64,000 nucleotides of DNA from the NCBI GenBank assembly GCA_020053105.1, contig JAGVNU010000028.1, positions 41,733-105,732 on the forward strand, in the 5' to 3' direction. This document shows positions 6,141 to 49,525 of the stretch, in pieces. This DNA comes from Thermodesulfovibrionia bacterium (GTDB taxonomy: Bacteria > Nitrospirota > Thermodesulfovibrionia > UBA6902). Every line of letters begins with the position of its first letter. Positions within the stretch are counted from its first letter, which is position 1. Below the pieces are notes generated by a model. That model was not told the DNA's origin, ran no database searches, and saw only the letters and a program-made list of their open reading frames with translations. A program made the position numbers and the translations under genes.

Positions 6141-6262
6141 ATGTTACTTTAAGTATCGTTATAACGGAAGAATTCAAGAAAATTATTAAATATCAGGCAG
6201 TTTAGGGATGTTACTTTTTGTAATTAGGTCTTGGGAGGACGTGAAAAAATGTAACGTTACTT
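6141..6262. promoter_or_regulatory. Candidate enhancer region with repeated GTTAC motifs
   Basis: ATGTTACTTT occurs at 6141-6150, again at 6208-6217, and as the palindromic ATGTAACGTTACTT at 6249-6262, about 100-230 bases upstream of the sigma-54 promoter. That is the usual position of binding sites for NtrC-type activators. The last copy overlaps the 3' end of the regulator gene. This is inference from spacing and repetition only. Confidence 0.4.
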
Positions 6263-7606
6263 GCCCCTGATGAGGCCCCATCTCTTTCTTTTTTCCCATA
6301 GCGATTTTCTTGTTATACCAAGCATGTCTGCCAATTCATTTTCACCGCGTGTTGACTGATACCGGAGAATAAACTCCTTGGTATACCCCTCAATTGAGAG
6401 GACCTTGTCAAGTGCTTCGCAGGGAAAGTCATCAATGACCTGGAGTGTTTCCGGAAGATGTTCCGGCAATATCATGTCCCGGTCCGTTACGAGCACTGCC
6501 CTTTCAATAATGTTCTGCAGTTCACGTACATTCCCGTGCCATGAATAATTCATCAGCAGGGTCTGCGCCATGTCATCAATTGTCGCTATGTGCTTGCCAA
6601 GCTCGTTTGAATATTTATTGAGGAAATGTCTTGCGAGTACCATGATGTCTTCCTTTCGTTCTCGCAGCGGGGGGAGCTTCAGCGTTACAACATTGATTCT
6701 ATAGTAGAGGTCTTCCCTGAAGACACTGTCCTTGACTGCCTTTACAGGGTCCCTGTTTGTCGCGGTTATAAAGCGCACGTCGATCTTTCTGCTCTGAACG
6801 CCGCCAAGGGGACGGATCTCCAGATCATCAATTACGCGGAGGAGCTTTGCCTGTAAGGAAAGAGTCATGTCCGCAATTTCATCAAGGAATACTGTTCCGC
6901 TGTCGGCCTCTTCAAATAATCCCCTTTTGAAAGTTACCGCGCCGGTGAAGGCGCCTTTGGTGTACCCGAACAGTTCGGACTCAAGGAGATTTTCCGGGAT
7001 GGCGCTGCAATTTATAGGGATGAACGGTTTTTCCCGCCTTGAGCTGTTGTAGTGTATTGCCCGAGCAAACAGTTCTTTCCCGGTGCCGGTCTCGCCGAGC
7101 AGGAGGACGTTGCTCTTTGAGTCGGCGATCTTCTTGACTTCATCTATGAGGGAAGTGATGACCTTGCTCTGCCCGACTATCTTTCCGAAATCATATCTGT
7201 TTTCAATCTGCTTTTTCAGGATGAGGTTTTCAGCCTTAAGCGCCTTTTCCCTCAACGCGTTTTTGATGGTCCTTTTCAGTTCTTCATGAATGATGGGTTT
7301 AACTACATAGTCGTATGCGCCGGCCCTCAAAGCGCCCACCGCTGTTTCCAGAGAGGCATACGCGGTTATCACAATAACGGATTGCTCGGGATATTTTTCT
7401 CTTACCCTGCGCACAAGTTCTATACCGTCAATTCCCGGAAGGATGATATCTGTGATGATGAGATCGTATGTGCCGTCTTCAATGCTTTGGAGGGCGGACT
7501 CGGCGCTGTTTGCGGAATCAACGGCATACCCTTCCTGCGAAAGAACCCTTTTCAGCGACTCCCTGAGTGTCCCTTCGTCTTCAACTATGAGTATTCGTTC
7601 AGCCAT
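6257..7606 (-). CDS. Sigma-54-dependent response regulator, NtrC family (intact)
   Basis: A 449-residue activator with the full domain set. The receiver has phospho-acceptor Asp53 (YDLIITDIILPG), Thr81 and Lys103. The AAA+ domain (about 145-375) carries Walker A GETGTGKE, the sigma-54 contact loop GAFTGA at about 218-223, Walker B VFLDEI and RERKEDI near its end. The C-terminal Fis-type helix-turn-helix is within GENELADMLGITRKSLWEKR. It should activate sigma-54 promoters when phosphorylated, and the nearest is the acetate operon promoter just downstream. No kinase gene is adjacent. The SSS histidine kinase at 15965-18919 is the attractive partner, because its own neighbouring regulator is a degenerate paralogue of this protein. 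Confidence 0.92.
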   Translation of the reverse strand: MAERILIVEDEGTLRESLKRVLSQEGYAVDSANSAESALQSIEDGTYDLIITDIILPGIDGIELVRRVREKYPEQSVIVITAYASLETAVGALRAGAYDYVVKPIIHEELKRTIKNALREKALKAENLILKKQIENRYDFGKIVGQSKVITSLIDEVKKIADSKSNVLLLGETGTGKELFARAIHYNSSRREKPFIPINCSAIPENLLESELFGYTKGAFTGAVTFKRGLFEEADSGTVFLDEIADMTLSLQAKLLRVIDDLEIRPLGGVQSRKIDVRFITATNRDPVKAVKDSVFREDLYYRINVVTLKLPPLRERKEDIMVLARHFLNKYSNELGKHIATIDDMAQTLLMNYSWHGNVRELQNIIERAVLVTDRDMILPEHLPETLQVIDDFPCEALDKVLSIEGYTKEFILRYQSTRGENELADMLGITRKSLWEKRKRWGLIRGK

Positions 7607-7644
7607 TTCAACCTCTCTGCGTTAATTTGGAAAATGCATTCAAC

Positions 7645-7791
7645 ATAATGCAGATGTTGGAAAATAATTTGTTTTTCGATACCTTGAACGTAGTTTCAAT
7701 CAAGGTCAGGCTTCATATTTTAACAAAGTCACATGTACAATTTGATGAAATTTATCGAGTTAAACAAATTATTTTTCAATGTCTGCATTAT
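7645..7791. mobile_element. MITE-like element, copy B (about 147 bp)
   Basis: Imperfect inverted arms of about 35 bases bound the element: ATAATGCAGATGTTGG... at 7645-7679 and ...TCAATGTCTGCATTAT at 7755-7791. Internal blocks TTTCAATCAAGGT and ATCGAGTTAAA also occur in the reverse complement of the ftsA-ftsZ element at 49317-49463, which has the same length. It encodes no protein. It lies between DUF294 paralogue 2 and the response regulator, so it may hold or interrupt the regulator's promoter. Confidence 0.65.
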
Positions 7792-7819
7792 TCGGATCAA
7801 TTGCATTATTTTATTGCTT

Positions 7820-9712
7820 TTAAACAATCAAAGGCTTGTACATCTCAACAACCGTCCCCTGCAGTTTCGATATAAGATGGAACGCCTCTCTGATTGTCCT
7901 TTTTTCAAGGTTGCTGAGCTTGTCAGGGTTTATAAAGTTTTCCGGTGAACGCCCTTCCTTTATCTGCTCATACTGATAATGCATCCTCAGCATCATAATA
8001 AACTCAAAGGCGTGCATAAGCTCATTGTGATACTCTTTGACCGCGGGATGCGTGATCTTAAGCGCGCCTATCCTGTCAAGAGTGGCGGTCAGTTTTATCC
8101 CGCTTTCGAGGGCGAAGAGCCTGATTATATCATTAAGCGGCATCACGCCCTTGAGCTTCAGGTCGAATTCATTTTTATGTTCACCGCTTTTTTCAACGAC
8201 GAACGATTTCAGGAACCCGATGGGAGGGCTGTTCTTTACAATTATATTGGCCATTTGCCCGAGAAATATTTTGTTCTTTGCGATAAGCGGCATATAAAAA
8301 CTGCCCAGTTCGTTGCATAAGCTGAATTTGCCGTGCACGGGTCTCATGTCAAAAAATATAAGGGATTTAAGGACTGCTTCCGGGGTCGGGCGCGATATCC
8401 AGTTTTCGAAATATTCCTTCCACCGCTTAAGAGGCTTGCGCCATTTTGGGTTGCTCGCCATGTAATCCGCCCGGCATGAAGAAAACCCTATTTGTATGAG
8501 GCTGTCTTTTATGAACCCGGCAAGCGCGGAAAAATATTTCTCCGCCTCTTCTTCAGCCTCAGCCGATGGCGTGTCTGCATAGATGATAGCATTGTCCTGG
8601 TCGGTCTTGAACGTCTGTTCCTTCCTCCCTTCGCTGCCGTAAACGATAAAACAGTAAGGCACTGGCGGCTGTCCGAATTTCCTCTCCGCGATCTCGATGA
8701 CCTTTTTCAGCAGCCTGTCGTTTATCTCGGTGATAATGCCGGTAATACTGCTGGCCTTTGTGCTTTCCTGCAGAAGCAGTCCTATTATAGTATTCATCTT
8801 TGCCGAGACAGTGACGAGATCTTCAATGGTCTGCTGTTTCTCAATATCATTTACAAAGGACAATGGCGACGTCCCCTGAAGGAGCATCAGGTCATGATTG
8901 GTGATGATGCCTTTTAATTCCCCCTCTTTAATTACGATCATATGGTGTATGTTGTACTTGATCATCTTCAGCACCGCATCAAAACATGAATCGTTCGCGT
9001 CGACCCTGATGAGGGAAATGCTCATGATGTTTTTAACCGGGTCCGTCACATTGCGTGCGCTTGCAACGACCCTCCGCAGGTCGCGGTCTGTGATGATCCC
9101 GGCAGGGACATTGTTCCTGTTCAAAACAATCAATGAGCTGATCCTGTGCTTTGCCATGACCTGCGCGGCTTCCTGAAGAGTCGTGTCTTCCGGGACTGTT
9201 ATCACCTCTTTGGCAATGTCTCCGGAAGGTGTTGTGAACAGAAGCCGGTCGGTCCCGCTGTAGGCGAGGCTTCTGCCCTTCATCTCCTCAAACGTCCTTT
9301 CAACGTACCTCGTCAGGTGAGACATGAAATACTCGGCAAACGCAGGCCTTGACTCGATCAGCTTTAATACCTTGTCCCTGCCGAGGGTATAGCAGATGGT
9401 ATCATCGGCGGCAATGACCGTGGTCTTCTGCTTGTCCCCTGCAATCAGGGAAACGAAACCGAAGCTGTCACCTTCTCCCCTGTAATCAATAATTGAGTCG
9501 GTCCCGCCTTCAGCCTTCATCAATATCTTTACGCTGCCTTTCTTTATTGTCCGGACAGCTTCGCTGGGAGGTCCGTCCTGCTTCAGGATGACCGTATCTT
9601 TCGGATAGAATTCCATTGACAGATTGTGCGCGACGTCCTTCAGGACCGGTTCATCAAGGAGCTGAAAAGGGGGGTTCTTCTTTAAAAAGCCTATCGCTTC
9701 TTCGAGGATCAT
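7820..9712 (-). CDS. DUF294 putative nucleotidyltransferase with cNMP-binding and CBS domains (paralogue 2)
   Basis: About 630 residues and collinear with the protein at 4061-5968: a cNMP-binding-like domain (FYPKDTVILKQDGPPSE), two CBS domains (GIITDRDLRRVV, GIITNHDLMLLQG), the nucleotidyltransferase core GSEGRKEQTFKTDQDNAI near residue 360, and a helical DUF294_C domain. The ORF track adds 22 N-terminal residues. I reject them because that stretch reads through a palindromic repeat, and the first protein also begins just before its homologous LSNIQPFQ-like segment. The start is therefore the ATG at 9712. It lies upstream of the response-regulator gene on the same strand, separated by the MITE. 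The two copies suggest duplication and divergence of one signalling enzyme around the regulator. Confidence 0.85.
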   Translation of the reverse strand: MILEEAIGFLKKNPPFQLLDEPVLKDVAHNLSMEFYPKDTVILKQDGPPSEAVRTIKKGSVKILMKAEGGTDSIIDYRGEGDSFGFVSLIAGDKQKTTVIAADDTICYTLGRDKVLKLIESRPAFAEYFMSHLTRYVERTFEEMKGRSLAYSGTDRLLFTTPSGDIAKEVITVPEDTTLQEAAQVMAKHRISSLIVLNRNNVPAGIITDRDLRRVVASARNVTDPVKNIMSISLIRVDANDSCFDAVLKMIKYNIHHMIVIKEGELKGIITNHDLMLLQGTSPLSFVNDIEKQQTIEDLVTVSAKMNTIIGLLLQESTKASSITGIITEINDRLLKKVIEIAERKFGQPPVPYCFIVYGSEGRKEQTFKTDQDNAIIYADTPSAEAEEEAEKYFSALAGFIKDSLIQIGFSSCRADYMASNPKWRKPLKRWKEYFENWISRPTPEAVLKSLIFFDMRPVHGKFSLCNELGSFYMPLIAKNKIFLGQMANIIVKNSPPIGFLKSFVVEKSGEHKNEFDLKLKGVMPLNDIIRLFALESGIKLTATLDRIGALKITHPAVKEYHNELMHAFEFIMMLRMHYQYEQIKEGRSPENFINPDKLSNLEKRTIREAFHLISKLQGTVVEMYKPLIV

Positions 9713-9758
9713 GGTAGTTAATAATATACTACAAGATGGGAATCCTTGCCGCCCTCCC

Positions 9759-9786
9759 GTAGGGGCATGGCGCGCCATGTCCCTAC
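9759..9786. repeat. GTAGGGGC-family palindromic repeat, copy 2
   Basis: A nearly perfect 28-base palindrome, GTAGGGGCATGG...CCATGTCCCTAC, between the divergent DUF294 paralogue 2 and the DJ-1/PfpI gene. It is related to the hairpins at 982-1011 and 58310-58341 and to the repeat inside proS. Confidence 0.7.
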
Positions 9787-49308: not shown

Positions 49309-49316
49309 TGAAAATG

Positions 49317-49463
49317 AATGCGGACACCTTGGAATGATTTATTTAACTCGATGGACTTATTATTGAAATTATGCGCTTAGCTTTGAATGAAATATACGTC
49401 AATACCTTGATTGAAATTGCGTTTATGGTATCGAAATATAATTCATTCCAAGGTGTCCGCATT
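49317..49463. mobile_element. MITE-like element, copy A (147 bp, 21-base terminal inverted repeats)
   Basis: Perfect 21-base inverted termini: GCGGACACCTTGGAATGA within 49317-49337, and its complement within 49443-49463. No ORF lies inside. Its reverse complement shares the blocks TTTCAATCAAGGT, TTTCGATACC and ATCGAGTTAAA with the element at 7645-7791, in the same order and with the same total length. It sits between ftsA and ftsZ. No target-site duplication is obvious. It probably moves by a transposase encoded elsewhere. Confidence 0.75.
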
Positions 49464-49525
49464 TATTGTTTTAATGAAAGATGAAAGTTGATATTAATTA
49501 TAAAAATTTTTAGAAGGAGGTTATT

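Follow-up and report, generated by a model that had tools for sequence, protein, structure and literature searches.

The ftsA-ftsZ spacer and a related locus

The window analysed here, a 64,000-nucleotide stretch of a Thermodesulfovibrionia genome, carries two copies of a repeat with inverted arms (Table 1). The first lies between ftsA and ftsZ, its forward orientation being the sense of both genes, and the second between genes for a sigma-54 response regulator and a DUF294/CBS protein, again in the sense of both neighbours; FtsA, FtsZ and the products flanking the second copy were identified with Pfam. At 49317-49463 the ftsA-ftsZ copy was described in the initial annotation as ending in perfect 21 bp terminal inverted repeats, which is exactly the case (AATGCGGACACCTTGGAATGA), and the three internal blocks quoted there as common to copy 1 and the reverse complement of copy 2 are all present in order. 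Alignment of these two sequences gave a local score of 61, the best of 2000 dinucleotide shuffles reaching 37, and a 44-nt stretch of copy 1 matches copy 2 at 82%. In the ftsA-ftsZ copy the outermost 16 bp depart from the usual sequence, the arms common to other copies reading GCAGACATTG.

Table 1. Features of the two repeat copies and their surroundings. The bounds of copies 1 and 2 were set by the covariance model and lie slightly outside those of the initial annotation.
Feature	Position	Strand	Basis or remark
Copy 1, ftsA-ftsZ spacer	49314-49466	+	cmsearch 153.1 bits; blastn copies
Copy 1 left arm, perfect 21-bp inverted repeat	49317-49337	+	
Copy 1 right arm, perfect 21-bp inverted repeat	49443-49463	+	
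Inner helix, left side TCGAT, within conserved block TTTAACTCGAT	49348-49352	+	pairs with ATCGA
Inner helix, right side ATCGA, within conserved block GGTATCGAAA	49430-49434	+	
Copy 1 loop region, conserved blocks CTTTGAAT, AATATAC and CCTTGATTGAAATTGCGTTTA	49353-49427	+	
ftsA stop codon TAA	49306-49308	+	left edge of copy 1, where other copies show TTAA
Copy 2	7644-7792	-	cmsearch 144.1 bits
DUF294/CBS gene, one flank of copy 2	7820-9778	-	Pfam
Sigma-54 response regulator gene, other flank of copy 2	6257-7606	-	Pfam
Copy 2 3' extension TTGAATGCATTTTCCAAATTAA	7622-7643	-	matches outer end AATGCATTTTTTGGGTTAA of other copies

Family, termini and distribution

A repeat family represented at ftsA-ftsZ and beside the sigma-54 regulator had been proposed from these two loci, and it proved larger than noted: a genome-wide blastn search with both copies returned 14 further near-complete copies plus truncated ones, giving at least 16 near-complete copies in a 3.27 Mb genome. 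Thus, neither a lack of further copies nor an alignment at the level of shuffled sequence, the two outcomes named beforehand as speaking against a family, was found. The flanks of the 16 near-full copies are unrelated, and once the copies are oriented the same blocks follow in the same order in all of them. The core measures 149-154 bp in almost all copies, and in young, well-kept copies the full element extends to ~185 bp with TTAA at each end. Alignment of copies with their flanks gave a left end of TTAACCC(A/G)AATAATGCAG and a right end of AATGCATTTTTTGGGTTAA, closing in GGGTTAA, and showed that similarity stops at TTAA, the sequence beyond differing between copies. The right arm holds ~13 additional bases near its base.

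Covariance-model and blastn searches placed the element in 20 of 41 relatives and, across the class, presumably Thermodesulfovibrionia, in 51 of 200 genomes, with 30 of 108 genera represented. Among the carriers with a name, two are groundwater Nitrospirae MAGs. Two genomes contain ~53 left ends apiece, a reversed control pattern matching hardly at all, and identity between copies within a genome reaches ~96%, which points to recent spread. A strict-pattern search across the phylum gave no match in genomes outside the class, the viral contigs, phages and plasmids searched contained no match to the repeat, and a search of an incomplete literature library returned no description of the Nitrospirota family. 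No Rfam covariance model matched the repeat; the locus L025:2407-2782 gave a match resembling the cspA thermoregulator at 55.9 bits, below the gathering score of 78 (E 5e-12).

A subfamily in genomes G004, G012 and G014 (L280:1501-1749, L257:1501-1740, L255:662-930 and L323) has an extra domain of ~75-80 nt, GCATTC...AAATGCGAATGTAAGGAA...TTCGCTCAC...GTGAGC..GCATTC, placed at the same left-arm point, which appears structured, with apparent hairpins of its own. The loop inserts of L344 and L353 (G080) consist of a common C-rich repeat, CCCCCCTT..GTCCCCCCTTG(C/G)CAAGGGG, and at L076:3633-3776 (G001) another MITE-like element, TGTTGCGGAAA...TTTCCGCAACA, sits inside a copy of the family.

Filled and empty orthologous sites

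Orthologous sites within the genus carry the element in some species and lack it in others. Copy 2 occurs in G000 and G003 and is missing from G001 and G002; the ftsA-ftsZ copy occurs in G000 and G002, is represented by a 47-nt hairpin remnant in G003 and is missing from G001 and G004; several further sites vary between species in the same manner. TTAA stands at both ends of the element, and no clean empty site showing a single TTAA was found. Sharing of the ftsA-ftsZ copy with one sister species, together with loss, reduction or absence in three, argues against an essential role of this copy in ftsZ control. The G000 and G002 orthologs at this site differ in their outer arms, each of which is self-complementary. 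In G080, internal deletions with differing breakpoints affect many copies.

Reduced copies in the form of short self-complementary hairpins were seen at ftsA-ftsZ in G003 and at two other sites in G002 and G003 (L231 and L246), and look as if the hairpin was retained once the loop had gone. The G001 ftsA-ftsZ spacer (L109) contains another kind of hairpin repeat, GTCATTCCCGC...GCGGGAATCC, flanked on both sides by TTAATGAGAA, and the G000 element has TAATGAAA on both of its sides.

Gene context and orientation

Between co-directional genes, as delimited by simple ORF calls, 47 copies are sense-oriented and 8 antisense (p 8e-8), and a second, cruder set gave 17:4. A further nine copies lie behind a same-sense gene and themselves face a convergent one, and seven lie between divergent genes. 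Placement is typically 0-30 nt past a stop codon and ~20-60 nt ahead of the next start. Measured from the upstream stop codon, the core most often lies exactly 5 nt away (8 of 59 copies), the value expected where the TAA of TTAA is itself the stop codon, and the stop codon of the upstream gene is often supplied in this way by the element. GC skew in two one-contig genomes showed no clear replichores by which copies could be oriented relative to replication.

Fold, covariation and strand asymmetry

The terminal inverted repeats form imperfect arms of ~31 bp. In the covariance check on 96 copies, 295 stem cells were changed on both sides, compared with a shuffled mean of 83 and with at most 79 in slid controls. 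The inner helix TCGAT/ATCGA was paired in 96% of cells across these 96 copies; no other inner helix is conserved across clades. The loop is kept as sequence, with blocks conserved across families and throughout the class. Calculated as RNA, the mean minimum free energy is -41 kcal/mol for the reverse strand and -35 kcal/mol for the forward strand.

Broken pairs are unevenly distributed between the strands. Read on the forward strand they comprise 271 A.C cells and 60 G.T cells, 37 of the latter sitting in one edge pair; with that pair left out, changes counted on a tree amount to 62 from Watson-Crick to A.C and 18 from Watson-Crick to G.T (p ~8e-7). Transitions in unpaired loop columns are balanced (212:212), so that mutation bias does not explain the 62:18 ratio, and the RNA prior in Infernal should push the opposite way, which makes the asymmetry conservative. 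Since an A.C mismatch on the forward strand is a G.T or G.U wobble on the opposite one, it is the reverse strand whose ability to fold is maintained, and its fold is, judged from this substitution pattern, under selection. The wobble preference would fit folded single-stranded DNA and RNA alike. About half of the copies contain two adjacent mismatches that the reverse strand would present as tandem G.A.

The suggestion that the conserved interior and the fold are functional is supported by covarying arms, strand-specific wobbles and conserved loop blocks. The promoter proposed among the possible functions is unsupported, the best scores at the right end being only slightly above shuffles. No terminator was found for a reverse-strand transcript. 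Other candidate contents were a small ORF in the loop, rejected on reading the alignment because indels shift the frame between copies, and an IHF site, where by eye only some copies fit WATCAANNNNTTR.

Search for a mobilising enzyme

A transposase with matching termini, which the initial annotation had suggested looking for, was not found in the carrier genomes; these are draft MAGs in which a partner could be missed, so that the failure is weak evidence. The MITE-like character of the family stands as regards its multiple copies, its inverted termini and the variable occupancy of orthologous sites, but not as regards a transposase gene with matching ends. Among specific candidates, an IS1380/piggyBac-like MITE moved into TTAA by IS1380 was rejected because no IS1380-type transposase occurs in 11 carriers. 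In IS200/IS605-type palindromic non-autonomous elements and REPs, one strand folds as the active form. Unlike these, the Nitrospirota repeat has arms that reach the very termini; Y1 transposases occur in genomes both with and without it, and no Y1 gene is flanked by its ends, which led to rejection of a Y1 transposase as mover. When 40 left-end loci were inspected for larger autonomous copies, each proved to be a complete copy, a truncated one or one with an internal deletion.

Comparison with known small repeats

The family behaves like the small intergenic repeats that have been reviewed as bacterial MITEs (PMC2229807, PMC10969869). The nearest in habit is ERIC/IRU of enterobacteria, which is likewise intergenic, with a conserved interior and many copies across related genera, is found in transcripts, has no known transposase and acts in an orientation-dependent manner (PMC2229807). 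ERIC has terminal repeats of ~7 bp and TA ends, whereas the Nitrospirota repeat has ~31-bp arms, TTAA ends, no apparent kinship to ERIC in sequence, and selection on the fold of one strand; compared with the description in PMC2229807, rather than by alignment of an ERIC sequence, it falls outside ERIC by its ends and arms. Correia/NEMIS of Neisseria, at 107-155 bp, shares long terminal inverted repeats and hairpins in mRNA (PMC2229807), but has 24-bp repeats and TA ends and lies mostly upstream of genes, with promoters, whereas the Nitrospirota repeat lies downstream of stop codons and has no convincing promoter. YPAL/RU-2 of Yersinia and QMITE2 of Coxiella are also small repeats, found in 3' regions a short way past genes (PMC2229807, PMC10969869), but differ in ends, target behaviour and host range.

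Interpretation

The family is dispersed and near-constant in length, with polymorphic sites, complementary arms, a favoured reverse-strand fold and a preference for the sense orientation behind stop codons. The reading that we tentatively favour, from comparison of the copies, is an interspersed mobile element, non-autonomous and ~150-185 bp long, that would be recognised as its folded reverse strand and whose insertions would be filtered by the host. The reverse strand is predicted to fold into the ~31-bp imperfect hairpin with the inner TCGAT/ATCGA helix and the conserved loop. A trans-acting enzyme would recognise the strand in this folded, single-stranded state, most likely as ssDNA, when the element moves into TTAA. 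The host may then tolerate mainly those copies that lie past a stop codon and place the forward strand in the operon mRNA; as this strand folds more weakly (-35 versus -41 kcal/mol), downstream genes of the operon should suffer less, and copies in the opposite orientation would put the tighter hairpin in the mRNA and be lost. Fixed copies would decay through internal deletion, leaving short hairpins.

An unlikely alternative is a conventional MITE belonging to a DDE transposon that acts on double-stranded DNA and duplicates a TTAA target, with template-switch repair of quasi-palindromes, not selection, keeping the arms complementary. The TTAA at both ends and the CCC/GGG termini suit such an element, as does the concerted replacement of whole arms between the G000 and G002 orthologs, and hairpins can arise and persist through template switching (PMC8794818). 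Replacement of whole arms, as in the ftsA-ftsZ copy, could arise by this route and to that extent counts against the folded mobile element. The DDE model does not predict the 62:18 strand asymmetry with its neutral loop control, nor interior blocks conserved class-wide at nearly constant length, and searches of the draft carrier genomes revealed no parental transposon.

Slightly less likely again is a structured non-coding RNA whose gene is the reverse strand and has been copied to many places in the genome; the sense bias would then simply set the RNA antisense to the operon. Covariation, G-U-type wobbles on the reverse strand and the possible tandem G.A in about half of the copies would agree with an RNA, but it finds no Rfam match, its right end lacks a consistent promoter, no terminator was found, and conservation of its inner helices does not extend across clades.

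Improbable in our estimate is a forward-strand intercistronic mRNA element of the ERIC/NEMIS kind, whose hairpin would set RNase cleavage and flanking mRNA levels to the benefit of the host. It would account for the 47:8 sense orientation, the stop-codon-proximal placement and the retention of the ftsA-ftsZ copy at an orthologous site in two species, and has precedents reviewed in PMC2229807 and PMC10969869; against it, selection acts on the fold of the opposite strand and sister species freely lose copies at given sites. An integron attC-like or HEARO-like recombination site is most improbable. Strand-specific folding, TTAAC/GTTAA at the base and the 13 nt that bulge asymmetrically from the right arm would suit one, but random bases beyond TTAA leave the element without the attC core RYYYAAC/GTTRRRY, and HEARO has no match among the Rfam models.

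A mobile element acting through its folded reverse strand, combined with host filtering, is the simplest account that joins both asymmetries. It is possible, but doubtful, that the family represents an undescribed kind of mobile element, in which selection and mobilisation would both act on a single strand, ssDNA or RNA, folded around a conserved loop and moved by some enzyme throughout this class of Nitrospirota.

Significance

The kind of repeat, ERIC/NEMIS-like, is already known; what appears to be new is the Nitrospirota family, the conservation of its loop across the class and the strand-specific constraint measured here. ERIC-type intergenic repeats have been known for decades with no agreed mover. 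The present family offers a quantitative sign that selection sees the fold of one strand, across many copies of graded age, and with many sequenced copies carrying this sign the spread of such repeats becomes a testable question. Long hairpins within essential operons such as ftsA-ftsZ, in some species and not in their sisters, constitute a natural experiment on intercistronic hairpins.
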